From Prostheceraeus crozeri (taxonomy: Eukaryota; Platyhelminthes; Polycladida; Euryleptidae): 64,000 nucleotides of DNA. This document shows, piece by piece, positions 12,814 to 32,087 of the stretch. The stretch covers positions 124,001-188,000 of the forward strand of contig CAJQUW010000947.1 of the NCBI GenBank assembly GCA_907163375.1. Reading direction: 5' to 3'. A program made the position numbers and the translations under genes. Every line of letters starts with the position of its first letter. The stretch's first letter is position 1. A model generated the notes under the pieces. It searched no databases, was not told where the DNA came from, and was given only the letters and a program-made list of their open reading frames with translations.

Positions 12814-12992
12814 AGTAATGGGAATAAGACCGTTCCAGGACACCATAAAATCAAAAAAATTAGTACTTTTAAAAACGACATAAATTTATGAATTTAGTCC
12901 CTTTTTCAGGTTTTAAAGACCTAAATTCATGAATTTAGTCTATTCAAAAAGTACCATTTTTTCAAAAAATGGTATTTTTAAAAACAACATAA

Positions 12993-13024
12993 ATCGGAGC
13001 GAAGCTCCTCTGGCTTAAGCCGAT
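12993..13024. repeat. Double-hairpin repeat, TIR copy
   Basis: 32 bases with outer ATCGG and CCGAT. Hairpin one is GGAGC, loop GAA, GCTCC. After TCT, hairpin two is the palindrome GGCTTAAGCC. It is inverted relative to the next copy. Confidence 0.8.
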
Positions 13025-13071
13025 TCATGAATTTGAACCCTTTTTCAGGTTATGAAGACCTAAATTCATAA

Positions 13072-13103
13072 ATCGGCTAAAGCCAGAGGAGCTTCGCTCC
13101 GAT
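13072..13103. repeat. Double-hairpin repeat, TIR copy, inverted
   Basis: The same family in reverse order: GGCT-AA-AGCC, spacer AGA, GGAGC-TTC-GCTCC. It faces the copy at 12993, so the pair could also form one long hairpin. Confidence 0.8.
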
Positions 13104-13166
13104 TTGGGTGTTTTTAAAAATACCCAATTTTTCACATTTTTCAAAATCTCAAATTTGAGAATTACA

Positions 13167-13198
13167 ATCGGGCGAAGCCCTAGAACCTTCGGTTCGAT
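13167..13198. repeat. Double-hairpin repeat, GGGC/GAACC type
   Basis: Outer ATCG and CGAT. Hairpin one is GGGC-GAA-GCCC, spacer TA, hairpin two GAACC-TTC-GGTTC. This is the commonest type in the element. Confidence 0.85.
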
Positions 13199-13353
13199 TT
13201 TCACCCTCAAAATCATGACCGTTCTAGGACACCAAAAATTATAAAAGTTGAGTAACTCAAATTTGAGAATTACAATTTTTACCTTGAAAATCATGACCGT
13301 TCTAGGACACTAAAAATTATAAAAGTTAAGAATCTCAAAATTTGAGAATTACA

Positions 13354-13385
13354 ATCGGGCGAAGCCCTAGAACCTTCGGTTCGAT
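13354..13385. repeat. Double-hairpin repeat, GGGC/GAACC type
   Basis: Identical in sequence to the copy at 13167; both lie in repeated units of the left terminal repeat. The right repeat has a single counterpart at 31757. Confidence 0.85.
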
Positions 13386-13506
13386 TTTCATTGCTTAAAT
13401 CATGACCGTTCTAGGACACCGAAAATTAGTATTTTTAAAAACGTCTTTTAAATCCATTTTTCAGGTTTTTAAAATATATCATGTGACTAAAAATATTTCT
13501 TTAAAA

Positions 13507-14172
13507 ATGGAAGAAACAAAAGTGGAAGGAACTTCAGAAATGGAAGGAACCTCAAGAATATATCCTTCGTTATCTCAATTAAAAATAAGTGAATTAAATA
13601 TAGAAAAACACAAAGATAGAATACGCTATATGAAAGATAAGGAATCTCAATTATTATTAAGATTAGAGCATTATAAAAAATTAAGAAAGAGATGGACTAA
13701 AGTTAAGAATGTAACACAAGGAATTGGCATATTCTTAACAATAAGTTTAGGTGCTTTAACAATTGTTATATCTTCTGGTGTTTTAGTAATTCCAGTAGTT
13801 GCTACAGCTTTAACAGGTACGGGTGTTTTTGCAACTTCACTTGCTACAATGTTAGAAAAATCTTTAATAACTAAGAAACGAAAATCATTAAAAACTAAGC
13901 ATTTACATATTAAAGAAGTATATGATAAACTACATTACTACTTTCAAAGAGTATGTGATGATAATGTTATTACGTTAGATGAGATTGAAAAATTTGATCA
14001 AATAGCTAATGAAGTAAATCAAATATCATTTCAATCACAGACAGAAAAAGTTTATGATAAAAATAAAAAGGATGGTAAAATTTCTAGTGATGGTAAAACT
14101 TTTAGTGATGATAAAATTTTTTTAGAAGAGCTAAAAACTTTATTAGACAAAACTTTATTAAACAAAACTTAA
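13507..14172 (+). CDS. Element 1 small membrane-like protein, unknown
   Basis: 221 residues. I start at the ATG at 13507 because it has the AAAAATG context of the other element genes and lies just inside the terminal repeat. The frame is open further upstream, but that part is repeat sequence. Residues about 80-120 form two adjacent hydrophobic, Gly/Thr/Val-rich segments that could span a membrane. A basic, coiled-coil-prone helix precedes them, and a charged tail with Asp-Gly-Lys repeats follows. No catalytic motif is seen. It is the only gene transcribed from the left end towards the centre. A virion or membrane-active protein is possible, but I do not recognise the family. Confidence 0.7.
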   Translation: MEETKVEGTSEMEGTSRIYPSLSQLKISELNIEKHKDRIRYMKDKESQLLLRLEHYKKLRKRWTKVKNVTQGIGIFLTISLGALTIVISSGVLVIPVVATALTGTGVFATSLATMLEKSLITKKRKSLKTKHLHIKEVYDKLHYYFQRVCDDNVITLDEIEKFDQIANEVNQISFQSQTEKVYDKNKKDGKISSDGKTFSDDKIFLEELKTLLDKTLLNKT

Positions 14173-14400
14173 TACGAGAAAATTTTAAACGAGAAAATTT
14201 TAAACGTGAAAACTTTAAACGTGAAAACTTTAAACGAAAAGATGTCAAACAACAAAGCAATAAAAAAATAATTTGTTCAGTAAAATGTTTTTGCTGTATA
14301 CCAATGTTACCACAAAATTCAAATATTATATTTTAAAAAAATAGACAAAATTAAAGCTGATAATAAAAAATAAAATATTAAAACATTATATTTGTATATT
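14172..14400. repeat. 17-bp tandem repeats and AT-rich intergenic stretch
   Basis: Four copies of a unit like ACGTGAAAACTTTAAAC follow the stop codon, then low-complexity AT sequence lies between the converging genes. A transcription-end region is likely, but no specific terminator is recognisable. Confidence 0.6.
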
Positions 14401-14404
14401 TTTA

Positions 14405-15193
14405 TTACTCGGTAAACAATTGTTCGATAACTCTTTCATGAATTTTTTTATCAATATTAATTGTGATAAATCCATAATCTTTTGACCAAGCATTATTACA
14501 CGATTGTTTAAATTCATCTTTATCTCTTATACATAAATCTCTTAACAAATCACTTAAGTTTCTTGCATTTATTTCAAATAGTATAAATATATTTGCATTC
14601 TTTCTAATAACACTTCCATCTAATGAATACATACTTTGTGTCAAATAAAATACACTACAGTTATTATGTCTACCTCTTGTGAAATAATTTCTTTGAACTG
14701 ACTGATTTCTATCATTAACACAATCATCAAAAATTACACAATGTTTCATTGTTTTATCTAGTTTACTAGGATCTTGCATATTACCACTATCATCTATTAA
14801 TTGTATTTTTATATGCTTATTTTTATTGGATTCAACTAATTGTTTATTTTTTGCTGCTTCTTCACACCACAAATTTATTTCTTCTTCATATTCAGATTTT
14901 TCGTATTCTTCGAATAGAGAAGCAATTGCTGTTTTTGTAAGATTATTTTCAAATCCATATTTTAAAAATTGATAGACGGGTTGTTCTGCCGTTGTTGTAT
15001 AAATTATAAGATTGTTATAATCCAAAAAATTTGGAGTCGTTAAAATTTTAAATAATAGATATGTTTTTCCACATCCTGATCTTCCACAAATAACTGACAA
15101 AACTTTATTAGATAAATTTGGATGATGATTAAATTTAAGTTTTTTTTTATTTAAAGTCATTTCATTCATTTTTAAAGTAATAAATTCATCCAT
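14405..15193 (-). CDS. Element 1 genome-packaging ATPase (FtsK/HerA superfamily)
   Basis: 262 residues. The Walker A motif is GRSGCGKT at residues 37-44 and Walker B is VIFDD at 153-157. A YLTQS motif about 35 residues later fits the sensor region of A32-type viral packaging ATPases. In Mavericks, adenovirus-like and giant viruses this protein pumps genomic DNA into the preformed capsid. Its length is typical. It is followed on the same strand by the penton-like gene, so the two likely form a late, virion-assembly block. The start ATG is the first in the frame and is preceded by AT-rich DNA. The frame is intact. Confidence 0.92.
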   Translation of the reverse strand: MDEFITLKMNEMTLNKKKLKFNHHPNLSNKVLSVICGRSGCGKTYLLFKILTTPNFLDYNNLIIYTTTAEQPVYQFLKYGFENNLTKTAIASLFEEYEKSEYEEEINLWCEEAAKNKQLVESNKNKHIKIQLIDDSGNMQDPSKLDKTMKHCVIFDDCVNDRNQSVQRNYFTRGRHNNCSVFYLTQSMYSLDGSVIRKNANIFILFEINARNLSDLLRDLCIRDKDEFKQSCNNAWSKDYGFITINIDKKIHERVIEQLFTE

Positions 15194-15254
15194 TATTGAA
15201 TTAGTGTTTTTAAAAACAAAAATATAAAAATTTTAATTTAAGTTTATTTTTTGT

Positions 15255-15320
15255 TTCTAATAATAAGATTAATAAGATTAATAAGATTAATAAGATTAAT
15301 AAGATTAATAAGATTAATAA
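15255..15320. repeat. 10-bp tandem repeat TTAATAAGAT
   Basis: About six head-to-tail copies of TTAATAAGAT upstream of the ATPase gene (which reads leftward) and after the penton-like gene. It lies at the position where promoter and polyadenylation sequences of the neighbours would be. Confidence 0.8.
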
Positions 15321-15387
15321 TGAAAATGATAAAAAAAATTAAACTTCTCTATTGTAGCGTAAAAGTTTATACCTCTCGAACGGGAGT

Positions 15388-16176
15388 TTATACCTCCCGT
15401 ACCAAAAGATCTATCATAATCTCTTCACCTCCAAAATTTATTTCTCGTCCTTTTTCATCAGTGATTCTAATGCCAATGTTGTTAATAGTTTTTCTTGTAA
15501 TAGGAAAATATATTAATGTTTGTGGAATTACATTTAATCTATAACCAATGGGTACAGTAAAAGCTGGAAAACTGAATATTAAATTTGATAATTTACCATT
15601 TATATATCCTCCTTCAATAATGTCACAATGTACAACAATTGAATTTATTTCAGTTATTTTTGGAATCTTCTCACCTAAATGATAACCTTGTCTATAGGTT
15701 TGTTTATTAAATCCTAATAGCTTTGACAATGATCTATCATGATTAAAATCAACTTGATGATTTTCGTCTAAAGTAAGAGAAAATTTATTAACTGCCGGTT
15801 CAACTGCAAAATGTAATTGTTTCTTATCTTTAAATGGTATACCTAAATGCCTCTTAATTTCATTTGATATTGTTTCAACTTCGTAAGAACCAGGAAGAAA
15901 AGTTAGTATTTTCCATGTTTTGCCTTTATCAGTAGAATATCTAAATTGATCATTCACATCTTTGATAACGTTTTGAATAGTGTTAAATGTGGAGAAACTA
16001 GTCAATGCAATTTGATAATTTTTATTTTGTTCCAAATGTAGAATGGGTTCTAAATTACAAGTGTGTGATGAAGTAGTTGTTATAATTTTTAACGTCGTAC
16101 TAAATTTTGATGAACCCAAAATCTCTGTTAAATTTTCTAAATGATTATTAATTTTGTCTAAATCTGCTGAACACAT
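15388..16176 (-). CDS. Element 1 penton-like minor capsid protein
   Basis: 262 residues. The pattern fits Maverick minor capsid proteins: an N-terminal beta-rich half with YQIALTSFSTFNTI near residues 54-67, then LLGF with Tyr-Arg-Gly-like residues near the middle. The C-terminal half has VHCDIIEGGYINGK, then IYFPI and a final INFGGEEIMIDLLV strand. These proteins are single jelly-roll pentons that close the capsid vertices. It sits directly upstream of the ATPase gene on the same strand. The ATG has the AAAAATG context seen through the element, and the reading frame is intact. Confidence 0.85.
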   Translation of the reverse strand: MCSADLDKINNHLENLTEILGSSKFSTTLKIITTTSSHTCNLEPILHLEQNKNYQIALTSFSTFNTIQNVIKDVNDQFRYSTDKGKTWKILTFLPGSYEVETISNEIKRHLGIPFKDKKQLHFAVEPAVNKFSLTLDENHQVDFNHDRSLSKLLGFNKQTYRQGYHLGEKIPKITEINSIVVHCDIIEGGYINGKLSNLIFSFPAFTVPIGYRLNVIPQTLIYFPITRKTINNIGIRITDEKGREINFGGEEIMIDLLVREV

Positions 16177-16195
16177 TTTTAAACTAAAAAATTAA

Positions 16196-16290
16196 ATAAA
16201 TATTTTTTTATGAAATATTTTTTTATGAAATATTTTTTTATGAAATATTTTTTTATGAAATTTTTTTTATGAAATTTTTTTTTATAAAAA
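16196..16290. repeat. 16-bp tandem repeat
   Basis: Head-to-tail copies of TATTTTTTTATGAAA between two minus-strand genes. Probable 5' flank of the penton-like gene. Confidence 0.8.
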
Positions 16291-17127
16291 TTAGAAACAA
16301 CATATTTCAGCTACACTTTTATAATCCTCTTCATTTAGAATCTTTTTTTCTAACAGTCTTTTCAATATAGCATGAATTTCATTGAAACTAGAATTATGTC
16401 CTTCTTTTATTGCAGATATTAAAATATTTAATCTATTTAGTAATTCTTGTGGATCATCTGGTAAAAATATGGTTGTTTCTGTTTTCTGTTTTTTTGTTTT
16501 CTGTTTATCAGATAAACCTTTCCCTACTTTAACTCCCGTTGATAATAAATTTTCTAATTGTTTATAACGTCTAAGAGTTTTTACTGTGCCAACTCTATCT
16601 AATATAGTTTTATATTTTATTAGATCTTCTACAGCATAATTTTTTAAATCTGCTCCTCTTAAAAGATCAACAAAATTTCTATCTAAACTAATAGGTTTTT
16701 TATCTGGAGTAAAAATTAATCCTCGTAAAGGTTGTGGAAATATTTCTTTACCACCAAGATAAAATCTTGCAAATAATTTTTTATCTAAAAAGAAAGTAGC
16801 ATGTTCGAATAACATAGATTTTGGTAATTTTTTATCTATGTTTGCCTCTAATAAACCATAGTCATCTAATAGTGTTTTAAGTACAGGATCCGCTATATCA
16901 ACACGTTTTTCATTAAGTTCCTTTTCAAGAGTTTTAAATGGTTCGACAGTTTTTTCATAATCAGTTTTTACTTCTTCAGTTAATTTTAATTTATCAAACA
17001 TATCAGATTGAATACCAGCTTTTGTCATTCTATGTTGTAGATGATTTTCTTTCATAATATTTCTTTGTTTTATTAATTCGTCTAATTGTTTTATTCTTTT
17101 AAAATTATCAGCTCTAACTTTATCCAT
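16291..17127 (-). CDS. Element 1 conserved-looking protein, function unknown
   Basis: 278 residues. The N-terminal 60 residues are a basic coiled-coil-prone helix. The first 29, MDKVRADNFKRIKQLDELIK onward, are nearly repeated by the short gene at 24508-24681. The middle contains IFPQPLRGLIFTPDKKP, then LLRGADLKNYAVEDLIKYK, a pattern that reminds me of an uncharacterised protein common in Mavericks. A Lys-rich linker (KQKTKKQKTE) leads to a helical C-terminal domain ending EICCF. There is no enzyme motif. Its neighbours are polymerase and capsid genes, so either a virion or a DNA-binding role is possible. Confidence 0.75.
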   Translation of the reverse strand: MDKVRADNFKRIKQLDELIKQRNIMKENHLQHRMTKAGIQSDMFDKLKLTEEVKTDYEKTVEPFKTLEKELNEKRVDIADPVLKTLLDDYGLLEANIDKKLPKSMLFEHATFFLDKKLFARFYLGGKEIFPQPLRGLIFTPDKKPISLDRNFVDLLRGADLKNYAVEDLIKYKTILDRVGTVKTLRRYKQLENLLSTGVKVGKGLSDKQKTKKQKTETTIFLPDDPQELLNRLNILISAIKEGHNSSFNEIHAILKRLLEKKILNEEDYKSVAEICCF

Positions 17128-17235
17128 TTTTATATGATAATTTTATATTATTATTTTATTTTATTTTATAATATTTTATATTTTTATATTGTTATATTGT
17201 TATATTGTTATATTTAGAAAATAGAAATTAGAAAA

Positions 17236-20200
17236 TTAAAAAGGTAAAGTAGTTATTCCATCAGGCAAAATTTTTCTTTTATCATCAAATGGATCTAATG
17301 CTAATTTATGTTCTTCTTTTAAATACATTTTATGTTTTTTTGAATTAAGTCTATAATTACATGCTGTTTTTATTTCATTATTAAATAATGCATTTTTATA
17401 ATCTTGAAATGTTATTTGATTAGCCACTGATGCCTTTGAAATTCCTTTTAATGTTTTATGTGTTTTAACGGGCGAAGCCCTGGAAGACATCTCTAATGTC
17501 CTAATATTTTTAGTTGTATCATAACAGTAACATTTAGATTTTAAAAATATGGCTTCTGTTATGAAATCTTCATTTCCTTCTAATTCATCTTTTACTTTAC
17601 ATAAATCAGAAGGATGAATAATATCTTTTATTTTATTAATTTCTTTATCTAGTGAAGAACCATATGGTATTGTTAATTCTAAGAAAACAGAATCGGTATC
17701 TGTAAAGTGTAATTTATAGTTTTTACCATAAGCAGGTGCTAAATAATCATATATAAAACTATACATAAATAGTTTAGCTAATTCTAATATAGTGAAACCT
17801 ATAAAATTAAACTTATCATGTTTTACAATGCTTCTTCTTAGATGTACAGCACATAGTTCATCACTGAATCTAGTAGTTCTTTTATATGTAGGTTTCCTTG
17901 TTAAATTTTGAAACCTATCTTTATCATAAACTATTTCAATATTTTGTCTATTACGCACATTTTCTAAAGTCTTACCATAAAATGCATTATTCATTAATTT
18001 GAAGAACACGTTTCCAAAATCATCTTTATTTCTTTTAGATATTTTGCGTTTTTCAATATTGAACTCAATATAATCTTTTAACCATTTAGATTTTTTATAC
18101 ACTAGTTTCCGGTGAATTTTTGTGAGAATCATTCCATGATCTAAATACCAATCTAGCATTCTTCCTTCAACAACATACTTTCCTTTATTGCTTTGTGTTA
18201 ACATAAGTTTTTTTGTTGGCCTATATTTCTTAGGAATTAAAGATTTTTGATAATCTGAAAAATCTTCTATATTGGGAATTTTGTTTTCTGGGCAGAAAGG
18301 ATAATATTTTGTTGCATCTTTTATATAATCAGGATATACTAAATCAACTTCATATATATAACCAGAATTACGATTTCCATCATATGTTTTTTGATAATCA
18401 AGATTATTACACCATGTCATCTCACCTGTTGGTAATTCTTGTATCATGCAAGAAGAATATAAGCTATTAAAATCATAATATAACAAATAGTTTTCTCGCA
18501 TGAATTCATCAATTGCTTTTTCACGTTCTACTCCTTCTCGTTTCGTTCGAAAAATTTCTAATATTTTTTCTTTTTCTTCTGGAGATAAAGGTTTCATTAT
18601 TCCATATTCTTGTGGATTTACTTTCTTATTATAACATTTAACATATCTATTACCTAAAACGGATGAAACTCCACCTCTAATTCCAGATTCAAAAAATAAT
18701 AATTTATCATATGTATTTTCTTTATAATGTTTAAGTTTAACGGACTTTGTCCTAGAGCCATCGGCTTGAACATTTGTATGTTTTAATCCTGCTAACCATG
18801 TTAAACCTGGTGTAGAATAACAATAACATGGATCTATTCCGTAATATTCTAAACACATATCACGAAAGTTTTCAAAAAGATCAGCTAGTATTAATACATC
18901 TATCTGTAGATATTTCATTGTATAATCATACATTGTTTTACAATTTAACTCTCTCCAATTTTTTTCAGCTTCTGCATAATCTTCTTCAGATAATTGTGAT
19001 TGTTTTAATGTTGATTTAAATTTATTTATTGGAGGAAGTTGTTCTTCTTCCATAATTTTATTCACAGAATTAAAATCTCCAGTTATGTACTCATACGGAA
19101 ATATTCCTTTTAAAGGTTTTAAATTATATTTATTTAATATTTTACATTGTTCAGGTTTCAAAGTTTTTCCCATAACATCTAATGAATAAGGAGTAAAAAA
19201 TCTAAATGCATCTAAAATTCTAATACAACCTAATTGCATTGAAAAATATTCTTCTTCTTGTTTACATAGTACATTTATTTTTTGTTGTTGTAATTTTTCT
19301 GATGAAAATAAATCTTTCATTACTAGATGAAAATCATATTTAGAACCATTGTAGAAATATAGAGGAACAAAGTTATATTTAAATTTGTTAGCATTAAGAT
19401 TACAAGAATTATGTGCTGCACCTCTATATAATCCATTTAGATGATCATGATCTTTTACTTTATCAATATATCTACCTCTACCAGTTTTATATTTATTTGT
19501 AAAACCTTTTCCACAGTAATAACAATTTATTTCATAATAAAATTCTTTTCTTTCTTCATCCGTTAATGGTATCATGGGTTTATTTGTTTCAAGCAATTGT
19601 GAAAAAAGTCCTTGTAATTCTTCTACTTTCTTTGTAAACATTTCTGAACTATCTTCACCATAGTATTGTAAATATTCTGATTTAAATAATTCAGGATAAT
19701 TCGAATGAATGTACATTCCCCAACATAATGGTTTTTGTTCAAATAAATTTTTTTCTTTACTTTTTTCAGAATTATAATTTTCAGAATTATTTTTTTCAGA
19801 ATTAAAAACCGAAGGTTCTAGGGCTTGGCCCGTACAATTTTCAGAATTATTTTTTTCAGAATCGGGTGAAGCCCTGGAACTTTCCGTTTGATTTTGTGTC
19901 ATATTAACATTATATGCTTCAAAATCACAATAAATAGTAAAGGGTACTTTATTTTTAAAATACCATTTATTATATTCTAAATAATCATCTTTTGGAAATG
20001 TGTTTCTGACTGCTTCATTTTGTTGACAATTCTCCAAATGTCTATTCATTTCTTCTAAAGTTCTAAAACTTGTCATACATTGAAGACAAGGAAAATTTTT
20101 ATTATCTGAAGTTTTTGTAAATATAGAAACATCTTTACACAATATAAAATGTCCCTGATAATATAATATATTCGCTTGTGCTGGTTGTTTTGTCTGTTCT

Positions 20201-21879: not shown

Positions 21880-22009
21880 TTTTTTTATTTTTTTAGAGAA
21901 AATTTAAGAAAAAAATTTGTGTTTTAATTTTAGATATAAACATTCTAATATCAAGGACTTGAGTGTTATTTTATATTATTATATATTTCACGTTCTTTAG
22001 TTATTTTTT

Positions 22010-22065
22010 TCTTTATCACATTAAGTTTTATCATATTAAGTTTTATCATATTAAGTTTTATCATA
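22010..22065. repeat. Short tandem repeat ATTAAGTTTTATCAT
   Basis: About four copies of a 16-17-base unit just after the stop codon of the clamp-like gene. Confidence 0.7.
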
Positions 22066-23361: not shown

Positions 23362-23434
23362 TTTTTATTTTTATTAGAAAAAATTTTATTTTTTATTTTT
23401 ATTAGAAAAAATTTTATTTTTTTATTGTTAAAAA

Positions 23435-24322
23435 ATGATGTTACCAAATGTTGGTGGAGGTGCATATATACCGAATAATCGTGAATCAGAAATAGAACTA
23501 GAAAATTATATAATGAAAACTGGAGACGTTTTATCTGGTCCATTGCATCTTTCTATTCTTCCGCAACAAAATACAGAGTTAACAAATAAACAATATGTTG
23601 ATACACAAATCAATGACTTAAAGGAAAAATATATAAACGATGTTATGGTTCCGCTGATGAACGAATTAAAGTTGCTAAAACTTAATGACAAATCATTAAA
23701 CGAAAAATTATTAAAACTTGATAAAAAGGATAGAGAGCTAGAAGCAGATATAGCAAAACTATTTAAAAAGATTTCAGAACAATCAAAAATTTTAATATTA
23801 CTTTCTTTAAATTTAAAATCTGCAGTCATTAAAAATAAACATCAGATAAAAATGTTAAAAGAACAATTAGAAGATGAAATAGAAAAACTACCTGAAAGAA
23901 TTAAAAAAAATTTAAAGCAGTTACAAACTACATTCCAAAAAAGTGTGAATGAATTGAGTTCTAAAATTGCTCAACAAATTAAAAAAATAAATCAATTAAA
24001 AATTGAAGTAAAATCACTTAATGAAAAAGTTGATAAAATGAAAACTCTGAAAATCAATTTAGAAAATGAATTAAAGAAAAATTTACAAGAAAACTCTAAA
24101 GAAAATAAAGAACAGTTAGATTCCGTTAAAAGAAAAGTAGATGGTCTTAAAGTTCAATTAAATGCTTTAAAAACAGAATTAAAGAAAAGTGAGAAAAAAT
24201 TAGAAATGACTGAAAAAGAAATTAAAGTACATCACACGCTTCTTGATGCAATAGATAAAGTGCAACAAGCAATTAATAAAGTTATCTCGAAGTTGTTGTC
24301 CATTCATAAACGTAAATCTTAG
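23435..24322 (+). CDS. Element 1 coiled-coil protein with tail-fibre-like motif
   Basis: 295 residues. Near residue 29, MKTGDVLSGPLHL is followed about 15 residues later by LTNKQYVD. This pair resembles the trimerisation and knitting motif of phage and virus tail-fibre proteins. The rest, residues 60-290, is almost entirely heptad-patterned Lys/Glu/Leu coiled coil. No C-terminal receptor-binding head is apparent. It starts the rightward block of structural genes. A fibre or spike-shaft role is my inference. The start is the first of two adjacent ATG codons, in AAAAAATG context. The frame is intact. Confidence 0.75.
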   Translation: MMLPNVGGGAYIPNNRESEIELENYIMKTGDVLSGPLHLSILPQQNTELTNKQYVDTQINDLKEKYINDVMVPLMNELKLLKLNDKSLNEKLLKLDKKDRELEADIAKLFKKISEQSKILILLSLNLKSAVIKNKHQIKMLKEQLEDEIEKLPERIKKNLKQLQTTFQKSVNELSSKIAQQIKKINQLKIEVKSLNEKVDKMKTLKINLENELKKNLQENSKENKEQLDSVKRKVDGLKVQLNALKTELKKSEKKLEMTEKEIKVHHTLLDAIDKVQQAINKVISKLLSIHKRKS

Positions 24323-24507
24323 TGTAAATATTAACTTAAATATTTTTTACTTACAAAAAATAAAAATCATAAAAAATATAAATATAATTTTAAAAATATA
24401 AAAATATAAATATAATTTAAAAAATATAAATATAATTTTAAAAATATAAAAGTATAAATATAATTTTTAAAAAAAATTTAAAAATATAAAAGTATATAAT
24501 TTTAAAA

Positions 24508-24681
24508 ATGGATAAAATTAGAGCTAATAATTTTAAAAGAATAAAACAATTAGAAGAGTTAATAAAACAAAGAAATATTATGAAAGAAAATCATAGAATA
24601 AAAAGAATGATTGATGCAGATTTGGTTCCTGATAAAGTTAAACCAAAAACCCAATCTGCAAAACTTAAGAACAAAAAATAA
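24508..24681 (+). CDS. Element 1 short protein, truncated paralogue of the 16291-17127 gene
   Basis: 57 residues, starting at an ATG in TTTAAAAATG context and ending with TAA. The first 29 residues match the start of the protein at 16291-17127 with only three substitutions (Val4 to Ile, Asp7 to Asn, Asp16 to Glu). After that it diverges into a Lys-rich tail ending KLKNKK. It is a small highly basic protein in the structural-gene block. It could be an independent gene made by partial duplication, or a remnant; conservation of its frame favours a gene. Confidence 0.65.
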   Translation: MDKIRANNFKRIKQLEELIKQRNIMKENHRIKRMIDADLVPDKVKPKTQSAKLKNKK

Positions 24682-24701
24682 ACATTTTTTTATAATGGAC
24701 A

Positions 24702-24770
24702 TCGGTTCATGGGTCAACGGAGATGTCTTCCAGGGCTTCGCGCTTCGCGCTTCGCGCTTCACCCGTATTT
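24702..24770. repeat. Expanded double-hairpin repeat in an intergenic gap
   Basis: ACATCGG and a GAGATGTC half, then AGGGCTTCGC followed by three copies of GCGCTTC and CACCCG. The tandem expansion sits where the GGGC-TTC-GCCC hairpin would be. It lies between two + strand genes. Confidence 0.7.
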
Positions 24771-24806
24771 ATATTTTTTCCCAAAAGTCAAATTTATTAC
24801 TAAAAA

Positions 24807-25289
24807 ATGCCTATAATTTATAAACATAATCTTAAACAATTTGCTTCAAATCAAAAAATTGCTCATGAACCACGTATGAATCCGGTTTACCATTATGATA
24901 ATAGAGAAACCGTTCAAAAAGAAGGGGATGGCATCTTTTCTGGTATTGGTAGTATCGTTAACTTAATTAAAAATAATAAAGATTTGATTACATCTGCTGC
25001 AAAAGGAGCAGCTGCTATAGGTAGTACAGCTAGTGCAATATCAAATGCTGTCAAGTCTCAAAACGAATTAAAACAACTAGAAGCTATTCGTAAACTCAAG
25101 AATGATTCTGAAGAACTAAAAAAATTAAAAAAACTTTCAGATGAAACAAAAAATAAAATTGCTAACATAGCTGTAGAGGGTGAAACCTTGAGGAGCGGAG
25201 CTCCGTCTAATAGTAAACAAAATGAAAAAACAATTGAAGAAATAAGAGGTAATGGCATTCATAGCGGAGCTGGTCTAGCAAAATTCTAA
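24807..25289 (+). CDS. Element 1 virion-like small protein
   Basis: 160 residues. The N-terminus is basic. Residues 45-85 are hydrophobic and Ala/Gly/Ser-rich (SAAKGAAAIGSTASAIS), followed by a charged helix of Lys/Glu/Leu. The C-terminus ends GNGIHSGAGLAKF. Ala/Gly-rich amphipathic segments of this kind are typical of small membrane-active or core proteins in Mavericks and adenoviruses. A short hairpin, GGAGC-GGA-GCTCC at 25192-25204, lies in frame and encodes RSGAPS. The ATG context is TAAAAAATG. It is directly upstream of the major capsid gene, which supports a virion role. Confidence 0.7.
   Translation: MPIIYKHNLKQFASNQKIAHEPRMNPVYHYDNRETVQKEGDGIFSGIGSIVNLIKNNKDLITSAAKGAAAIGSTASAISNAVKSQNELKQLEAIRKLKNDSEELKKLKKLSDETKNKIANIAVEGETLRSGAPSNSKQNEKTIEEIRGNGIHSGAGLAKF
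25192..25204. repeat. Single hairpin of the repeat family inside a virion-like gene
   Basis: GGAGC-GGA-GCTCC; only the first hairpin of the family is recognisable. It encodes part of LRSGAPSN. Confidence 0.6.
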
Positions 25290-25358
25290 AATTATATTTT
25301 AGTAAAAATTTTTTTCTGTCTGTGAGAAAAACAAAAAGTCAAATTATTTTTTATAAAA

Positions 25359-26693
25359 ATGTCTTCGCTTATCGAAAATAAATTTAGATTAGACGATCCT
25401 CCGTTCGTCAGTTATAATCAAAAAAAGAATGACTATATAAGAATTGCTATGAATCCCGGATCTTCCAGTAGAGTAAATACTGGAGGAGATTTAATCTTTG
25501 AAGTTGATAATCAGCAGAGTTATTTATATTTACCTGATTCATTTTTACACTGCGAATATTCTTTATATAGTGATGCTAATTTTACAACACCATTACCAGA
25601 TACCGATAATATTACACTAGAGAATAATTTTTTCCCAAGTTTATTTACACAAATGCGTTTAGATGTTGCAACTCAAAATATAGAAACAATAAGTGATTCT
25701 CCAGGTGTAATTGATACAATGCTTAGATTTATAACAATTGGTGAAAATAATAAAAAGTATGAAATCGAAGGTTGGTTTCCTGATACTAATGATGGTATAA
25801 TTGTTGATGATTTAACTCACGCCGGAACAGATGCCGCAGGAATTGCGAAAGATGTAGAAAATATTGCAAAACATTTAAATAAAACAAATAATGATGCATA
25901 TAAAGAAAGACGTGAATTTAACAAAAAAAGTAAACAGACAGTTAATTGGCCATTGTCTCCATTATTCGGATATTTAGATTATGATAAAATATCATATCAA
26001 TTAAAATTTAAATTAATAATTCATCGCACAGCCAATAATGAATTAATCTTTTTTGGTAAGACTGGGAAAAAAGCATATTTAAAAATTGATAGACTTGAAT
26101 GGTGGATTAAGCATATTACTCCTAGTTTAGAGGTTGAAACAGCTATTGCAAAAAGATTAAATACTAACAAACCAATTCCAGTTAATTTTCTAAAGCGTAC
26201 TGCTAGTTCAGTAACTTTTTCCGAACAAAGATTTAACTGGCATTTTACTAGAACTGCGAATACCCCAAGATATTTATTACTAACATTTCAAAGAAATAAT
26301 TCTCCAAGTTTTGATAAGAACAATAATATCTTCCATATTAATACAATTCGAAGTTTACAAGTTTCATTAAATCAAACTCGATATCCAATTGATCCATTAA
26401 GATTCGATGATACCAATAATCAATTTATGGAAGGATATGATTCTTATAGAAATCTTTGTATAGAATTTGGAGTTGAACCACAATTAACTCCTGGAGATTG
26501 GAGACATTTATATCCAATTTTCTGTTTCGATTTAAGTGCACAATCTGAAGATATTATTAAAAATGGTTGTGATGTAACAATTAATATTGAAAAGAAAGAT
26601 TCCACAACTTCATTGATGGCTTATGGTTTATTGCTAGAAGATGCAAAATATTCTATTGAAATTCTTAATGGAAAGATGGTTAGGATTAGTTAA
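25359..26693 (+). CDS. Element 1 major capsid protein (double jelly-roll)
   Basis: 444 residues. Near the N-terminus a segment of the form VNTGGDLIFEVDNQQSYLYL, followed by an FFPSLFTQMRLDV strand, matches the pattern of Maverick capsid proteins. The alternating strand-rich composition with Trp/Tyr/Phe in the second half (PLSPLFGYLDYDK, LEWWIKHI) fits a second jelly roll. The C-terminus is a clear beta strand with short tail, YSIEILNGKMVRIS. It forms the icosahedral shell as trimers. It is shorter than some Maverick hexons, which often exceed 600 residues. It is the only large structural gene in the + block. No hairpin repeat is inserted in it, which may reflect strong constraint. Confidence 0.85.
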   Translation: MSSLIENKFRLDDPPFVSYNQKKNDYIRIAMNPGSSSRVNTGGDLIFEVDNQQSYLYLPDSFLHCEYSLYSDANFTTPLPDTDNITLENNFFPSLFTQMRLDVATQNIETISDSPGVIDTMLRFITIGENNKKYEIEGWFPDTNDGIIVDDLTHAGTDAAGIAKDVENIAKHLNKTNNDAYKERREFNKKSKQTVNWPLSPLFGYLDYDKISYQLKFKLIIHRTANNELIFFGKTGKKAYLKIDRLEWWIKHITPSLEVETAIAKRLNTNKPIPVNFLKRTASSVTFSEQRFNWHFTRTANTPRYLLLTFQRNNSPSFDKNNNIFHINTIRSLQVSLNQTRYPIDPLRFDDTNNQFMEGYDSYRNLCIEFGVEPQLTPGDWRHLYPIFCFDLSAQSEDIIKNGCDVTINIEKKDSTTSLMAYGLLLEDAKYSIEILNGKMVRIS

Positions 26694-26701
26694 TAACCTG
26701 A

Positions 26702-26755
26702 GGACCCTTGGTCCGATCGGCTAAAGCGCTAAAGCCAGAGGAGCTTCGCTCCGAT
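26702..26755. repeat. Hairpin plus double-hairpin repeat after the capsid gene
   Basis: Immediately after the stop codon: GGACC-CTT-GGTCC, then ATCGGCTAAAGC with a GCTAAAGCC duplication, AGA, GGAGC-TTC-GCTCC, GAT. The position would allow it to act as a 3' end signal. A related CTCAGGACC remnant follows the next gene at 27446. Confidence 0.75.
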
Positions 26756-26759
26756 AGGT

Positions 26760-26899
26760 TAATTAAAATTTTTTCATAACTAGAATAGATTTAAATTTTT
26801 TGTTAACTTAAAATTTCTTAACTAAAAATTTTTCATAACTAGAATAGATTTAAATTTTTTGATAACTTTAAATTCTTAACTTAAAATTTTTTATTAAAA
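26760..26899. repeat. Direct repeat upstream of the next gene
   Basis: AACTAGAATAGATTTAAATT and flanking AT sequence occur twice, at about 26777 and 26838. Probable promoter region of the gene at 26900. Confidence 0.6.
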
Positions 26900-27442
26900 A
26901 TGTCGCAAGCGAAAAGTAATATTAATAATAAAACTGTTGAATTAAAATTACGTAATATTGTTGACAAAAATACCCCTAAAACTATTACTATTAATAAAAA
27001 AAAGTATTACATAAGTAAACCAATGATAGAGAATATTAAATTACAAGAAGAAAAGAATGGTGGGATTCTCCCATTAATTCCACTAATAATAGGAGGCATA
27101 GCTGCAGCAGGAAGTGTTGCAGGTGGAACAGCTGGTATTGTCCAAGCAGTAAATAAAAATAAATCAGAGAAGGCAGCATTAGAAGAACAAAAACGTCATA
27201 ATAGGGAGTTAGAGAAAGTTGCTAGGGGTGAAGGGACATCGGTTCATGGAACATCGGAGATGTCTTCTAGGGCTTCGCCCGAAGGAAAAGGAGTAGTAGA
27301 TAATTTTATTAGTAAATTAAAATTAGTTGATGAAGGAAAACGAGTTCTTAAAAATATTCTCCACAATGTTGATGATTTAATTGAAATTAAAGAAACTAAA
27401 GATGGTTCTGGAATATATCTAAGTCCTAGTATGATTCGGTAA
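26900..27442 (+). CDS. Element 1 pX/pVI-like minor virion protein
   Basis: 180 residues. A basic N-terminus with PKTITINKKKYYISKPMI is followed by the hydrophobic segment GGILPLIPLIIGGIAAAGSV AGG and a Lys/Glu-rich helix. It ends with a GSGIYLSPSMIR motif. The hydrophobic Gly/Ala run and the C-terminal GxGIYL motif are, to my knowledge, common in a Maverick virion protein comparable to adenovirus core and membrane-lytic precursors. An in-frame double-hairpin repeat (27234-27281) encodes GTSVHGTSEMSSRASPEG between helix and C-terminal domain. It is followed by six 18-bp repeats and the integrase gene. Confidence 0.75.
   Translation: MSQAKSNINNKTVELKLRNIVDKNTPKTITINKKKYYISKPMIENIKLQEEKNGGILPLIPLIIGGIAAAGSVAGGTAGIVQAVNKNKSEKAALEEQKRHNRELEKVARGEGTSVHGTSEMSSRASPEGKGVVDNFISKLKLVDEGKRVLKNILHNVDDLIEIKETKDGSGIYLSPSMIR
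27234..27281. repeat. Double-hairpin repeat inside the pX-like gene
   Basis: GACATCGG, GGAACATCGG and AGATGTC, then TTCTA, GGGC-TTC-GCCC. It is in frame and encodes TSEMSSRASPE, the same peptide as the polymerase copy at 21491. Confidence 0.8.
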
Positions 27443-27469
27443 TAACCTCAGGACCTTTGTTTCTTTTCG

Positions 27470-27575
27470 GTAAAACAATTTTTTTTATCTTCTTAATTTT
27501 TTTTATCTTCTTAATTTTTTTTATCTTCTTAATTTTTTTTATCTTCTTAATTTTTTTTATCTTCTTAATTTTTTT
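27470..27575. repeat. 18-bp tandem repeat upstream of the integrase gene
   Basis: Six copies of TTTTTTATCTTCTTAATT between the pX-like and integrase genes. Probable promoter or spacer. Confidence 0.9.
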
Positions 27576-27587
27576 TTATCTTTTAAA

Positions 27588-28955
27588 ATGAATACTAAAA
27601 ATTCCGAAAATTTAATTAAATTAAAAATTTCTAATTTAGATTTATTGAATTATCTATTAAACAAAAATAAAAACTCAAACTGTAAAATTTATGAAGGTAA
27701 CGACGATAAACAAAGTTTGGTTACTACCTACGGTGGTGATATACAAAAAACATTAGAAAACTTTCCTGGATTTATTTGGAGTAAATATTCGAAAGAAAAA
27801 CATCTTCCTGGTCATTCATATACTGGGCCAGGAACTCGATTAGATATAAGACTAGATGAGAATAATAATCCGAAACCAGGTGAAGAACCAATAAATAGAG
27901 TAGATGCCGCCGCTTACAGGCATGATTTAGCTTATCGAAATCATGATCTAAGTTCTCGTCATGCAGCTGATAAGAAGATGATTCAAGAATTAGATAGTAT
28001 TCAGAATCCTACATTTAGAGAAAAAATTGAAAGAATGTTTGTTAAGAAAGCTTTACAAGCTAAAATATTATTCGGTCAGGGTTTAAATGAAACTAATAAC
28101 CCTGAGAGCAACGCTCGAAATCATAATTCAGACGTTTATGCATCTGAAATTCATAAAGAATATAGAAAGCCTAAATATTTATTAAAAGTAAAAGTATTTA
28201 ATAAAGATGATATTTGGAGTGCTGATCTTATTCATATGCCGAATGAAAGGGACCGAACCGAAGGTTCTAAGACAAAGTCTGACTACAAATACGCATTGAC
28301 AGTTATAGATTTATATACACGATACGCTTGGGTAAAACCTTTAAAAAATAAAAGTGGTCTTTCAGTTAAATATGCGTTTGAAGAAATCTTTAAAGAAAGT
28401 AATAGAAAGCCAAAAAAATTGTTTGTTGATAAAGGGTCGGAATTTTATAACCGAAACGTTCAGCCACTATTTGAAACTGTTTATTCAACTGAAAACGCTG
28501 GGAAGGCCGTAGTGATAGAAAGATTCAATCGGACGTTAAAAAATAAAATTTTCAAGAAATTTACTCAGCAAGGAAATCAGAAATGGTTAAAAATATTACC
28601 AGGAATTGTGGAAGAGTACAATAATAAAGTTCATTCTGGTATTGAAGAAACTCCAAAGAATGCTTCTGACGACCCTGATTTGATACGAAAGAAAATATTC
28701 GAGAATAATAATTTGAATGAGAGTAATCCGAATTTGCAGAAACTTAAGCCGAAATTTAAAATTGGAGATAGAGTTAGAATATTTAAATATAAGAACAAAT
28801 TTGAAAAAGGCTTTGTTGGCTATTGGACTAAAGAAATATTTGAAGTTTGCAAAATAAATAAAACTTATCCGATTACTTATGAAATTAAAGATTTAGATAA
28901 TGAGGATATCAGAGGTCGTTTTTATCAAAATGAATTACAGAAAACAGAGCTTTAA
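27588..28955 (+). CDS. Element 1 phospholipase A2-integrase fusion protein
   Basis: 455 residues in one frame. The N-terminal domain is parvovirus VP1-type phospholipase A2: calcium loop YTGPGT at 78-83 and catalytic HDLAY with His112-Asp113. Residues 205-330 are a retroviral-type integrase core with DDE residues Asp213 (WSADLI), Asp281 (FVDKGSEF) and Glu311 (VIERFNRT). The C-terminus (about 385-455) is an SH3/chromo-like DNA-binding domain with GDRVRIFKYKNKFEKGF and FYQNELQ. I see no N-terminal HHCC zinc domain; the phospholipase takes its place. Phospholipase would act during entry and integrase at insertion, so processing may separate them. A hairpin repeat inserts DRTEGSKTKSD just after the first catalytic Asp. 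Confidence 0.9.
   Translation: MNTKNSENLIKLKISNLDLLNYLLNKNKNSNCKIYEGNDDKQSLVTTYGGDIQKTLENFPGFIWSKYSKEKHLPGHSYTGPGTRLDIRLDENNNPKPGEEPINRVDAAAYRHDLAYRNHDLSSRHAADKKMIQELDSIQNPTFREKIERMFVKKALQAKILFGQGLNETNNPESNARNHNSDVYASEIHKEYRKPKYLLKVKVFNKDDIWSADLIHMPNERDRTEGSKTKSDYKYALTVIDLYTRYAWVKPLKNKSGLSVKYAFEEIFKESNRKPKKLFVDKGSEFYNRNVQPLFETVYSTENAGKAVVIERFNRTLKNKIFKKFTQQGNQKWLKILPGIVEEYNNKVHSGIEETPKNASDDPDLIRKKIFENNNLNESNPNLQKLKPKFKIGDRVRIFKYKNKFEKGFVGYWTKEIFEVCKINKTYPITYEIKDLDNEDIRGRFYQNELQKTEL
28249..28282. repeat. Double-hairpin repeat inside the integrase core
   Basis: GAACC-GAA-GGTTC at 28255-28267, spacer TA, AGAC-AAA-GTCT at 28270-28280. The second stem differs from all other copies yet pairs fully. 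It encodes RTEGSKTKSD. Confidence 0.85.
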
Positions 28956-28989
28956 CCTTTAGGTGGCGCTTTAGCTAGCTTCGCTTGAG

Positions 28990-29451
28990 TTATAGATTGT
29001 TTAACTCTAACATAATATCTAGAAATGATACTCCTTTTTGTAATTTAAATAAAACATAAAGACATAATTGGCCACAATAAGTTGTTCCCGGTTTTTGAAT
29101 TTGAAACGTATTGTATGTTCCCGTTCCAAGTAATTCTTTTACTTCATTTGTAGGTGGAAGCCCGTATGAGTCAAAATAATAATTATCTCCGTTTTTACTA
29201 AAGATACCTGCTGACCAATGTACGCCGTTTTGGTCTGAAGTGTGAAGATTCGTTATGAAATTTACAGTTATTGATGGAACTTTGTTCCGGGAACTGAAGG
29301 TTCCTGATGGCCTATTTTTTAGGAATTGTAATTCGTTTCTCATTAGAACATGAAAATTCTTTATTCCTAATTCATTTGCGATTTTCTTTAGGTCGAAATT
29401 TGTCGTAGTTTGCGTTCCATATAATTTAAAAAACTCATTTATGTTGCTCAT
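28990..29451 (-). CDS. Element 1 adenain-type cysteine protease
   Basis: 153 residues. The catalytic triad fits adenovirus and Maverick maturation proteases: His78 in GVHWSAG, Asp94 in YYFDSYGLPP and Cys126 in TTYCGQLC. The family cleaves capsid precursor proteins during virion maturation. It is on the minus strand, converging with the integrase gene. An in-frame hairpin repeat (29276-29304) encodes SGTFSSRNKVP at residues 49-59, just before the conserved beta strand that leads to the catalytic His. The frame is intact. The ATG is preceded by TTATAAA. Confidence 0.93.
   Translation of the reverse strand: MSNINEFFKLYGTQTTTNFDLKKIANELGIKNFHVLMRNELQFLKNRPSGTFSSRNKVPSITVNFITNLHTSDQNGVHWSAGIFSKNGDNYYFDSYGLPPTNEVKELLGTGTYNTFQIQKPGTTYCGQLCLYVLFKLQKGVSFLDIMLELNNL
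29276..29304. repeat. Double-hairpin repeat inside the protease gene
   Basis: GGAAC-TTT-GTTCC followed at once by GGAAC-TGAAG-GTTCC (bases 29290-29304), sharing a G. Stems differ from the standard type but pair perfectly. Confidence 0.8.
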
Positions 29452-29484
29452 TTTATAATAAAAAAATTTCTTAAGAGACCCCTA

Positions 29485-29665
29485 GAAGTCAGAAGGGGGG
29501 GGGTATTGATTTAAAACTGGTCTCTAATGATGTCTTTCCTTACTACTTAGTCAGAAGGGGGTATTGATTTAAAACATTTTTATAATGATGACTTTCCTTA
29601 CTACTTGGGGGGGGGGTATTGATTTAAAACTGGTCTCTAATGATGTCTTTCTTTACTACTTATTC
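29485..29665. repeat. About 60-70-bp tandem repeats with G runs
   Basis: Three copies of a unit containing GGGGGTATTGATTTAAAAC, an AATGATG-CTTTC stretch and TTACTACTT. It lies immediately upstream of the protease gene. Confidence 0.85.
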
Positions 29666-29789
29666 GATTTTGAAATTATTTAATTTAATCTAAATTTAAA
29701 CGTTACATTGTTGCATTGTGTTAGTGTTTAACTACATAGAGTTGGTGTTTCGCTCATCTTTTAACAATAGTAAGTCATTACTCATCAAT

Positions 29790-29906
29790 ATGTGTCAATT
29801 CTTTATTCCCAATTGCTTAGCAATCTCATTTAAATCGAAATTTAATGTGGTTTTGTTTGCTGTATATTTTTTGGAAGTCTCTGATGTTTCTCATTTTTAT
29901 AGAAGA
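29790..29906 (-). pseudogene. Decayed copy of the protease gene 5' end
   Basis: The minus strand from 29906 begins ATGAGAAACATCAGAGA and continues with NFDLNEIAKQLGIKN in a shifted frame. This corresponds to residues 1-33 of the protease encoded at 28990-29451 (MSNINEFF, then NFDLKKIANELGIKN). It has a frameshift and a stop at the position of the FHVLM motif. Only about 115 bp of homology is visible. It is a partial duplication, not a working gene. Confidence 0.75.
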
Positions 29907-31540
29907 TACAATATTTCTATTATATTCCCGTAAATGAGAAATTAAAAACAACACATGGATATTTCAATTTGGTTACAACCACTTTGCATACATTCAATTT
30001 GGATACATTGAAATACATGTAAATTTGTCCACGCGAGGACAAGGTTTCATTGGATGAGAGAAAAATGACGTCATATAACAACATAATGAAAATGATTGAA
30101 AACAGGAAATAACATTGCATTTAAAACAGGAAATAACATTGCATTTAAAACAGGAAATAACATTGCATTTAAAACAGGAAATAACATTGCATTTAAAACA
30201 GGAAATAACATTGCATATAAGATACAAATTTTCTAAACAATAAGATTTCTGTCCACGCGAGGACAAGGTTTCATTGGATGAAACACTCTATTGTATTTAC
30301 ATGTGCAAGAGGAAATAACATTGCATTTAAAACAGGAAATAACATTGCATTTAAAACCGACAGATACAAATTTTCTAAACAATAAGATTTCTGTCCACGC
30401 AAGGACAAGGTTTCATTGGATGAAACACTCTATTGTATTTACATGTGCAAGAGGAAATAACATTGCATTTAAAACAGAGGGGTTTAAAGAATGATAAATT
30501 TTCTTCACAGCGCGTCATTTGATTAGTTGAATGGCGCAGTATTTTAGCTGAATGGCGCACCATTGTTAAGAAAATTAAAATGAAATAGCATTGAAAATAA
30601 AGTGTCTTGCGGCCGTATCGCAATAACAATAGCGGAGTTTAACATCCAAATTCCATTGAATATGTCAGCGCGGTATTATCGCTAAATGACGCACCATTGT
30701 TTGAGAGAAGAATGAAATCATTTAGAATGTCACATAATTGCTTTACACAATGAAGTCAATCTTCCGTTAACATTAGGTCGTGATTTTAAAAGTACAATAT
30801 AAACAGACACCCTACAAAGCATAGGAAAATTGTCTGCTAATTTTACCTAATTGAAATGTAACTTCGGTAATTGTTCACTATAAAAATATGTCTTGTCATT
30901 AGCACAAAGAGATAGAAGATAGTTGATGTGCTTACCGATAAAAATTTTACACATAACACTGAGTGAATTGTTTCTTTTTTCATGCAACAAGAATTTGTGT
31001 AAGTTTACAATTGTATTATTGACTCCACCATTTGGCTCTATGAAATCACTCAAAGAATCTGTAAATTCATGCCTCTCAAAATATATTCCTCTTGAATTCC
31101 TCTCGTAATTTTTTCATCCTCCCTGTCAACGATTGTTTTCTTCTATCTTCAAATTGATCTTGTCTCATTTTGAGAAATATATGACGAGAGCGTTTTAACA
31201 CAACCTTCACTGGCAAGAAACACTGTTAAATTAAATAAGTCTTCAGCACAATTGTTTGAAATAGCCATATCGATTATTGTTGTTGTGTATTGTTACACGG
31301 CATTGCAGCCGGAGTAGGATTTGCTGGTTATATATTTCACGTCTTACAAATGTCTAAGTGGGTGTAGCAGCTGTTTGTTCTTTCATACATTGTTTCCTTT
31401 CAAATGTTTGAGTGGGAAGTCACAGCTCTTTACACTGAAATGCATTTTATTCATAAATGCGGGAAGCAGATGTTCTCTACCCTTGAATGACAATTGTAAA
31501 AGTACCTAAACTTATTGTTAAGAATATGTCAATTCCTTCA
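29907..31540. other. Non-coding right flank of element 1, repeat-rich
   Basis: No gene is seen. It holds five copies of a 24-bp unit (AACAGGAAATAACATTGCAT plus TTAA) at 30101-30220. It also holds two copies of a roughly 140-bp block (about 30221-30360 and 30362-30476), and three copies of a GTCCACGCGAGGAC palindrome or its variant near 30030, 30252 and 30393. The rest is AT-rich. GC content and composition are closer to host DNA than to the gene blocks. Confidence 0.7.
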
Positions 31541-32081
31541 AATATTTTTAGTCACATGATATATTTTAAAAACCTGAAAAATGGATAAAATTCATAAATT
31601 TGAAATTCTTAACTTTTATGATTTTTTCGGTGTCCGGGTTTTCGGTGTCCTGGAACGGTCATGATTTTCAAGGTAAAAATTGTAATTCTCAAATTTGAGT
31701 TACTCAACTTTTATAATTTTTGGTGTCCTAGAACGGTCATGATTTTGAGGGTGAAAATCGAACCGAAGGTTCTAGGGCTTCGCCCGATTGTAATTCACAA
31801 ATTTGAGATTTTGAAAAATTTGAAAAATTGGGTATTTTTAAAAACGCCCAAATTCATGAATTTAGTCCCTTTTTCAGGTTTTTAAGACCTAAATTCATGA
31901 ATTTATGTCGTTTTTAAAAGTACCATTTTTGAAAAAAATGGTACTTTTTGAATGAACCAAATTCATGAATTTAGGTCTTAAAAACCTGAAAAAGGGTCTA
32001 AATTTATGAATTTATGTCGTTTTTAAAGATACTAATTTTTTTGATTTTATGGTGTCCTGGAACGGTCTTATTCCCATTACT
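31541..32081. repeat. Right terminal inverted repeat of element 1
   Basis: It matches the left terminal repeat in inverted orientation to the tip CGGTCTTATTCCCATTACT. It carries one GGGC/GAACC double hairpin at 31757-31788. Confidence 0.9.
31757..31788. repeat. Double-hairpin repeat in the right terminal repeat
   Basis: The inverted counterpart of the copies at 13167 and 13354, with identical stems. Confidence 0.85.
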
Positions 32082-32087
32082 CTATCA
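32082..32087. repeat. Right target-site duplication of element 1
   Basis: CTATCA, identical to 12808-12813. Confidence 0.95.

Follow-up and report, generated by a model that had tools for sequence, protein, structure and literature searches.

Double-hairpin repeats in a flatworm Maverick and their probable spread as an ultrashort mobile element

What are the small double-hairpin repeats that lie scattered through a Maverick (Polinton) in the genome of the flatworm Prostheceraeus crozeri, and how did they come to stand in its genes, between them and in its ends? The window that we analyzed, a stretch of 64,000 nucleotides from contig CAJQUW010000947.1 (positions 124,001 to 188,000 of the forward strand), contains an intact Maverick at positions 12814-32081, bounded by terminal inverted repeats (TIRs) and by an exact 6-bp target-site duplication (TSD), CTATCA, at 12808-12813 and 32082-32087. 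Its domains include a double jelly-roll (DJR) capsid, an A32-like ATPase, a PolB and an rve integrase; named relatives of the capsid protein are from Lottia gigantea, and several open reading frames (ORFs) of the Maverick match no Pfam family. From this window, and from searches of the 2.05-Gb assembly of 14,165 contigs that contains it, we conclude that the repeats probably form a non-autonomous mobile element of ultrashort length, copies of which enter Maverick DNA at 2-nt staggered breaks and so spread among Mavericks.

The repeat unit and its flanks

An earlier note, made from the letters of this stretch, had described a family of double hairpins in the Maverick, with at least 18 copies inside and outside genes. 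Both a structure-only scan and a covariance model recover the family. The scan counted 16 double hairpins in the Maverick, whereas 20 dinucleotide shuffles of it gave 0-3 each (mean 0.75); the remaining 44.7 kb of the window, which is of higher G+C content than the Maverick for which alone the shuffles were made, gave 20 matches, none family-like by eye. Covariance model R1, of the kind that the note had proposed and built on nine copies, found 16 places at E<0.1, all of them in the Maverick and none in the other 44.7 kb, where the best match reached E=1.1. Rfam returned no match at gathering score across positions 12000-33000. We list 18 copies in the Maverick and two degenerate double hairpins, in line with the earlier count, and 12 of the 18 are clean, each with a core of exactly 28 bp whose sequence is two adjacent hairpins. 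The copies are given below by position and strand, with the degenerate hairpins last.

12995-13022, minus: 28-bp double hairpin, type B, left TIR; TSD AT; no counterpart in the right TIR
13074-13101, plus: 28-bp double hairpin, type B, other arm of the TIR palindrome; TSD AT; no counterpart in the right TIR
13169-13196, plus: 28-bp double hairpin, type A; TSD AT; tandem unit at ~13246-13325 empty
13356-13383, plus: 28-bp double hairpin, type A, second filled tandem unit; TSD AT
17469-17502, plus: 34-bp variant, type C, in PolB; AA repeat, 3' boundary fitted; peptide absent in 17 aligned PolB homologues
18741-18768, plus: 28-bp double hairpin, type D, in a conserved part of PolB; TSD AA; exact 10-residue insertion
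19805-19832, minus: 28-bp double hairpin, type A, in PolB; TSD TA
19863-19890, plus: 28-bp double hairpin, type A, decayed, in PolB; TSD AT; undecayed in L034 and L039
20417-20444, minus: 28-bp double hairpin, type B, in PolB; TSD AT
21492-21528, plus: 37-bp variant, type C, in PolB; L035 is 39 nt shorter here; TSD taken as TA, the TT on the left being read as a mutated copy
21600-21627, plus: 28-bp double hairpin, type A, in PolB; TSD TA; empty in orthologous L032 and L035
22608-22635, plus: 28-bp double hairpin, type A, in the 431-aa ORF; flanks AT/TT, the sole clean copy without a matching TSD
24697-24765, minus: 69-bp type C variant, intergenic, with internal tandem expansion; 2-bp flanks not matching
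26718-26753, plus: 36-bp type B copy, intergenic, 8 bp of it duplicated internally; TSD AT; adds 38 nt, which is not divisible by three
27233-27281, minus: 49-bp variant, type C, in the 180-aa ORF; AA repeat, boundary fitted
28254-28281, minus: 28-bp double hairpin, type E, in the rve integrase domain; TSD AC; exact 10-residue insertion
29275-29305, plus: 31-bp double hairpin, in the 153-aa ORF; GA repeat, boundary fitted
31759-31786, minus: 28-bp double hairpin, type A, right TIR counterpart of the copy at 13169; TSD AT
25177-25204, plus: degenerate double hairpin, in the 160-aa ORF; structural scan alone
26687-26715, plus: degenerate double hairpin, located past the capsid gene; matched weakly by the model (E=1.6); intact relative in L027, GGTT-AGT-AACC / GGACC-TTT-GGTCC

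L numbers refer to other places in the genome. The boundaries of the copies at 17469, 27233 and 29275 were picked to give a 2-bp repeat, and these copies were excluded from the duplication and multiple-of-three tests. A reading of the copy at 21492 as a 43-bp element with a TT repeat was ruled out by the orthologous empty site in L035, which gives 37 bp and TA.

The earlier note had put the unit at roughly 32 bp, framed by ATCG and CGAT. The true core is 28 bp, and the frame consists of the core ends together with a 2-bp target duplication that is mostly AT and otherwise AA, TA or AC. At the core ends, the inverted match is at most 3 bp (CGG...CNG). Longer variants (34, 36, 37, 49 and 69 bp) have the first hairpin in common or carry internal expansions, and the second hairpin GACATC/GATGTC, which the note had listed among the stems of the unit, is present in several of these longer variants (34-49 bp and 69 bp). 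Tandem expansion occurs inside single copies, as GCGCTTC-like units at 24735-24765 and as the 8-bp GCTAAAGC at 26725-26740, which suggests slippage at the hairpins.

The dinucleotide before the core equals the dinucleotide after it in 11/12 clean copies. Sliding the boundaries by 1-3 bp reduces the matching flanks to 0-2/12, and equal dinucleotides 30 bp apart have a background frequency of 0.114 in the Maverick, which puts the excess at P ~5e-10; when three duplicates that arise from the TIRs, the tandem units and the palindrome are dropped, 8/9 independent clean sites still match (P 2e-7). Because the dinucleotide varies (AT, AA, TA, AC), the repeat fits a cut-and-fill duplication and not a fixed frame, and the TA target with TA duplication of miniature inverted-repeat transposable elements (MITEs) of the Tc1/mariner type is not the pattern found here. 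Repeats of 3, 4 or 5 bp flank 0/12 clean copies and the Maverick's own TSD is 6 bp, which makes its rve integrase an unlikely agent. Among further type A copies fetched from the genome, 14/20 have a 2-bp repeat, and this is not independent evidence because those copies occupy sites already counted (10 in the TIR, the rest at 19863 and 21600).

Filled and empty sites within and among Mavericks

Several sites exist in both states. Within the window, the right TIR lacks both type B copies found in the left TIR (12995 and 13074), and two of the three tandem units of the left TIR are filled and one is empty. In PolB, the window and five other copies have a unit at 21600 that L032 and L035 lack, so that the same anchors stand 40 bases apart in the former and 10 in the latter. 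The reverse holds near 21457: the window and four others have no unit there, L032 and L035 contain one of type A that adds 30 nt, and the type C unit of L042 adds 39 nt. At 21492, type C occurs in the window and type A in four others, and three have an empty or nearly empty site. Near 16311, L049 has a type A copy close to the end of the gene matching a 278-aa ORF, and the window is empty there. The TIR site of 12995 is empty in 100/100 places, as far as listed among 12,734 matches to its pattern in the genome, a pattern that permits both states, may report the shortest match and may match one TIR repeatedly.

L048 reads CCGG at the orthologous site of 21492 and has no insertion, possibly the footprint of a lost copy.

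Comparison with proteins gives the same picture. The ten residues that the unit adds to the integrase are absent in 32/32 aligned homologues, the closest of which is 74% identical; a small number of unrelated residues stand at the insertion point in some homologues, so the turn tolerates a change of length. In PolB, the copy at 18741 adds exactly ten residues to a conserved stretch, and 17/17 aligned homologues lack them. The comparison of orthologous copies with and without insertions, which the earlier note had proposed, yields 30-nt presence/absence differences in the TIRs, the tandem units and PolB. Together with the 2-bp duplications in the window and the in-frame PolB and integrase insertions, these strongly support the copying mechanism that the note had suggested.

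The 28-bp unit and its 2-bp duplication add 30 nt, or ten codons, so that the reading frame is kept. Eleven of the 18 listed copies lie in ORFs that stay open through them (PolB, the integrase and the 153-, 180- and 431-aa ORFs), although these ORFs were found by being open and the openness is built in. The other seven lie outside ORFs, which bears out the earlier claim of copies inside and outside genes, and two of them add 38 and 71 nt. Eight of the 11 ORF copies (5/7 clean) share both strand and reading frame, and their translations resemble TEGSRASP; on that strand, two of the three frames of type A are open. We infer that insertions in the stop-bearing frame were removed by selection.

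The commonest 28-mer, type A, has 3,186 exact copies in the genome, against 0 for its reversed control. Among the matches listed, 56/100 type A places stand in facing pairs 12-25 kb apart, as expected for TIR pairs, and 20 places drawn from the same 100, 19 of them not in facing pairs, were fetched with their flanks; in 20/20 the flanks match Maverick TIR or internal sequence. These fetched places, the facing pairs and the 44.7-kb flank of the window are the grounds for regarding the unit as restricted to Mavericks. Moreover, 20 other PolB loci (198 kb) contain 32 double hairpins, against ~1.3 in shuffles, many at shared sites and with layouts that are not all alike. Other Maverick lineages have the same layout with other stems: GGCC/GGCC with GCAGC/GCTGC, GGTT/AACC with GGACC/GGTCC, and AGGC/GCCT with GGGGC/GCCCC, the last with an AC repeat.

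The genome as a whole shows a very large Maverick expansion, with 12,734 matches to the TIR site pattern in 2.05 Gb, and PolB gave 176 matches from 88 scored candidates. The integrase segment, including its insertion, matches at 99-100% in 40 scored places. Ten copies (L052, L054, L055, L057, L059, L061, L063, L065, L067 and L069) have this integrase segment in common and other sequence at the offset of the window's PolB (21300-21800), so that the Mavericks of this genome appear mosaic.

Outside this genome, the exact 28-mer and near-exact patterns had 0 matches in IMG/VR viral contigs, and the repeat patterns had 0 matches in GTDB genomes. Protein queries of IMG/VR gave 0 matches for the capsid, 0 for the integrase and two distant loci for PolB, which contain no convincing repeat (best E 4.3). 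Six-residue words of six translated repeat types are absent from 287 homologous proteins (47, the best 120 of 1631 and the best 120 of 1353), and the presence of these types in other species can therefore not be claimed.

Pairing, mechanism and rival explanations

Changes that affect both members of a base pair occupy eight cells of the nine-copy alignment; shuffles give 1.6, and 0/500 of them reach 8, with relatedness among the copies uncontrolled; when pair partners are slid, the both-side changes drop to 0-2. A search that fixed the second hairpin and left the first free, one loop base excepted, found 328 copies in the genome, and 93/100 of those listed have, by reading, a fully Watson-Crick-paired first stem. 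When the units are folded as single-stranded DNA, the named double hairpin is the minimum-energy form in 5/8 sequences (two of which are the strands of one copy), the two hairpins minus one pair in 2/8 and an altered form in 1/8, with modest z-scores of -1.2 to -2.2.

How would such a unit move? A nuclease would leave a 2-nt stagger in Maverick DNA, a hairpin copy would be placed in the staggered break, and the gaps would then be filled. The copying enzyme would recognize the folded unit, in single-stranded Maverick DNA or in RNA, and movement may coincide with replication of Maverick DNA; the survivors in genes would be insertions that added ten harmless codons. A fuller account, to which we give not quite even weight, is that of a protein-free hyperparasite of ~30 nt that lives only in Mavericks, enters through a 2-nt staggered cut made by a structure-reading enzyme from Mavericks or host, has split into lineages that each have stems of their own, and owes its tolerance to a length of exactly ten codons.

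A number of observations count against mobility. Neither an enzyme nor an autonomous partner was found, and the 3,186 exact copies include those that multiplied passively along with their Mavericks. The duplication is inexact in plain register at all three sites that are new relative to the window: near 21457 the flanks are AA/CA in L032 and AA/TA in L035 (an AC repeat fits L032 with the core shifted by 1 bp), at 21492 they are TA/TT in L047, and near 16311 they are TA/TT in L049, where the excess over the window is 31 nt and thus no multiple of three. In the other Maverick lineages, a fixed-layout scan found a 2-bp match in 3/12 rows, or 3/8 after four rows judged to be other-strand or overlapping readings were set aside. 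Later mutation or differing core lengths could explain the inexact flanks outside the window. Among type A copies changed only at stem position 4, with the partner left free, 0/25 are compensated: 22/25 keep the old partner and 3/25 have a changed partner that does not pair, and some of the 25 may share one originating event. Finally, 87/100 of the free-first-hairpin copies among the matches listed have one sequence, that of the integrase insertion, so that independent founder events may be few.

The claim of the earlier note that both arms change together is real on the nine-copy alignment; what the changes separate is types, and none of the 25 single-stem variants is compensated. Selection for the fold at the place of insertion, which the note had offered as one reading, is therefore not supported. 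The pairing marks founder types, as expected if copying needs the fold, and not a copy's life after insertion; recognition of the fold by the copying enzyme would account for founder types that differ in entire hairpins and for the free decay of copies once inserted.

The main rival to a mobile element is template switching in Maverick replication, in which a nascent 3' end stalls, moves to a hairpin repeat close by, uses it as template and goes back, so that an apparent 2-bp duplication arises with no dedicated enzyme. It is kept alive by the inexact flanks at further sites (21457, 21492 and 16311) and would suit a duplication of microhomology size, the AT-rich targets, the slippage-like expansions in the copies at 24697 and 26718 and the tandem hairpins in L005, L007, L008 and L009. 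However, a jump guided by the donor's flanks predicts the donor's dinucleotide, and four dinucleotides matched on both sides need differently flanked donors; moreover, core boundaries are base-exact in 11/12 clean window copies, and we consider template switching unlikely. The mosaic appearance of the Mavericks, with an integrase segment at 99-100% in 40 scored places and other sequence at the PolB offset in 10, might instead point to spread solely by recombination between Maverick copies, a few old insertions having been shuffled by gene conversion. Recombination would reach homologous sites, yet the clean unit stands at nine distinct sites here, eight of them with a matching dinucleotide, and an identical B unit occurs in the TIR and in PolB. 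Such an origin is improbable.

Readings without any movement fare worse. Copies in both TIRs and along the Maverick, some at sites common to many Maverick copies, are what one might see if the repeats were a selected functional element, an RNA or DNA structure for replication, packaging or expression at fixed sites, but these sites are empty in relatives and sister copies and the stem mutations are uncompensated, and we hold this very improbable. A narrower proposal, that the hairpins are mRNA ends as described for giant viruses in the available part of PMC5413956, was rejected as a misfit with copies inside genes and in both orientations. Finally, 11/18 listed copies in ORFs might suggest ordinary conserved coding segments, or else chance small palindromes in AT-rich DNA. 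The 16 double hairpins against a shuffle mean of 0.75, the absence of the repeats from homologous proteins and the recurrence of the same unit in both orientations, across several frames and in TIRs, which do not code, leave this reading practically no credence; its coding form, which the earlier note had named in advance as fatal to its own proposal, is refuted by the absence in homologues and the non-coding TIR copies.

Surroundings of the Maverick and relation to known elements

Several features of the window lie beside the main subject. A single ORF at 27588-28955 joins the rve integrase to a phospholipase-A2-like domain, a domain pair that many homologues share. The TIR palindrome (12990-13104 and 31841-31905) has a loop that is inverted between the left and right TIRs, comparable to the flip-flop of hairpin virus ends. 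At ~63772-64000, a second, related Maverick TIR begins (AGTAATGGTCAAAAGACCGTTCC...), in which the counterpart of the 12995 site is empty. Endonuclease VII-like and PolB domain fragments at 43782-46003 are likely the remnants of another Maverick, and a Gypsy-like retrotransposon with reverse transcriptase, RNase H, integrase and a gag-like ORF occupies 52176-56294.

The smallest class of mobile DNA is familiar mainly from mitochondria and bacteria. The mobile-element reading now places it within a transposon that is large and virus-like, in a genome where empty and filled sites can be compared to the base, and makes the way in which such elements move directly testable, since target, duplication, donor types and tempo can be read from thousands of copies. 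It also offers a route by which loops of ten residues are added to replication and integrase genes in virus-like elements. Caution is advised as well, because Maverick gene annotations and phylogenies may contain mobile inserts.

MITEs and other non-autonomous DNA transposons are likewise short, lack autonomy and leave a target-site duplication. The units described here differ from MITEs in their 28-bp length, inverted ends of at most 3 bp, the lack of an autonomous partner in our searches and a 2-bp duplication that is not restricted to TA. Another system of short insertions in genes is that of Magnusiomyces capitatus mitochondria, where the insertions are named byps. Many short nucleotide blocks there lie within protein-coding genes, disrupt the frame and are skipped in translation, according to the accessible text of PMC5009743; unlike these blocks, the window insertions keep the frame and have no stop in it, so that skipping is unneeded. 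In a largely open-access literature, available in part (cf. PMC12220804, PMC5799277, PMC5413956), we found no description of such units in Mavericks or Polintons, which accords with the earlier remark that no such system was described in them and leaves their absence from print unproven.

The earlier note had named the palindromic elements of Rickettsia as the nearest parallel. In the part of PMC10969869 available to us, these are ~150 bp long and palindromic, stand in-frame in unrelated genes and encode extra residues, and no layout of two hairpins is described there. In-frame insertion in unrelated genes is indeed shared; the bacterial elements are ~150 bp, in contrast to a core of 28 bp here, and mitochondrial GC clusters are closer. 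Double-hairpin elements, for which mobility was proposed, were reportedly found by Paquin et al. in 2000 in fungal (Allomyces) mitochondrial DNA. These are alike by name, being two adjacent small hairpins, although those are mitochondrial and the units here are in Mavericks. Yeast mitochondrial GC clusters, as far as the available text of PMC4478555 describes them, are palindromic and modular units of tens of bp with AG or ACT direct repeats and an unproven mechanism. Like those clusters, the units here have merged or shuffled modules, many copies, a short direct repeat and presence/absence polymorphism; unlike them, they reside in Maverick DNA and not in an organelle, have a variable dinucleotide in place of a fixed AG or ACT, and include many in-gene copies that keep the frame. 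Set beside mitochondrial GC clusters and double-hairpin elements together, they are a compact dispersed unit with a short direct repeat, its sequence varying and inexact at the three further sites, and their carrier is a Maverick with a 6-bp TSD beside other transposon remnants rather than an organelle. The nearest elements in kind are the yeast mitochondrial GC clusters and the double-hairpin elements, ahead of the Rickettsia palindromic elements.

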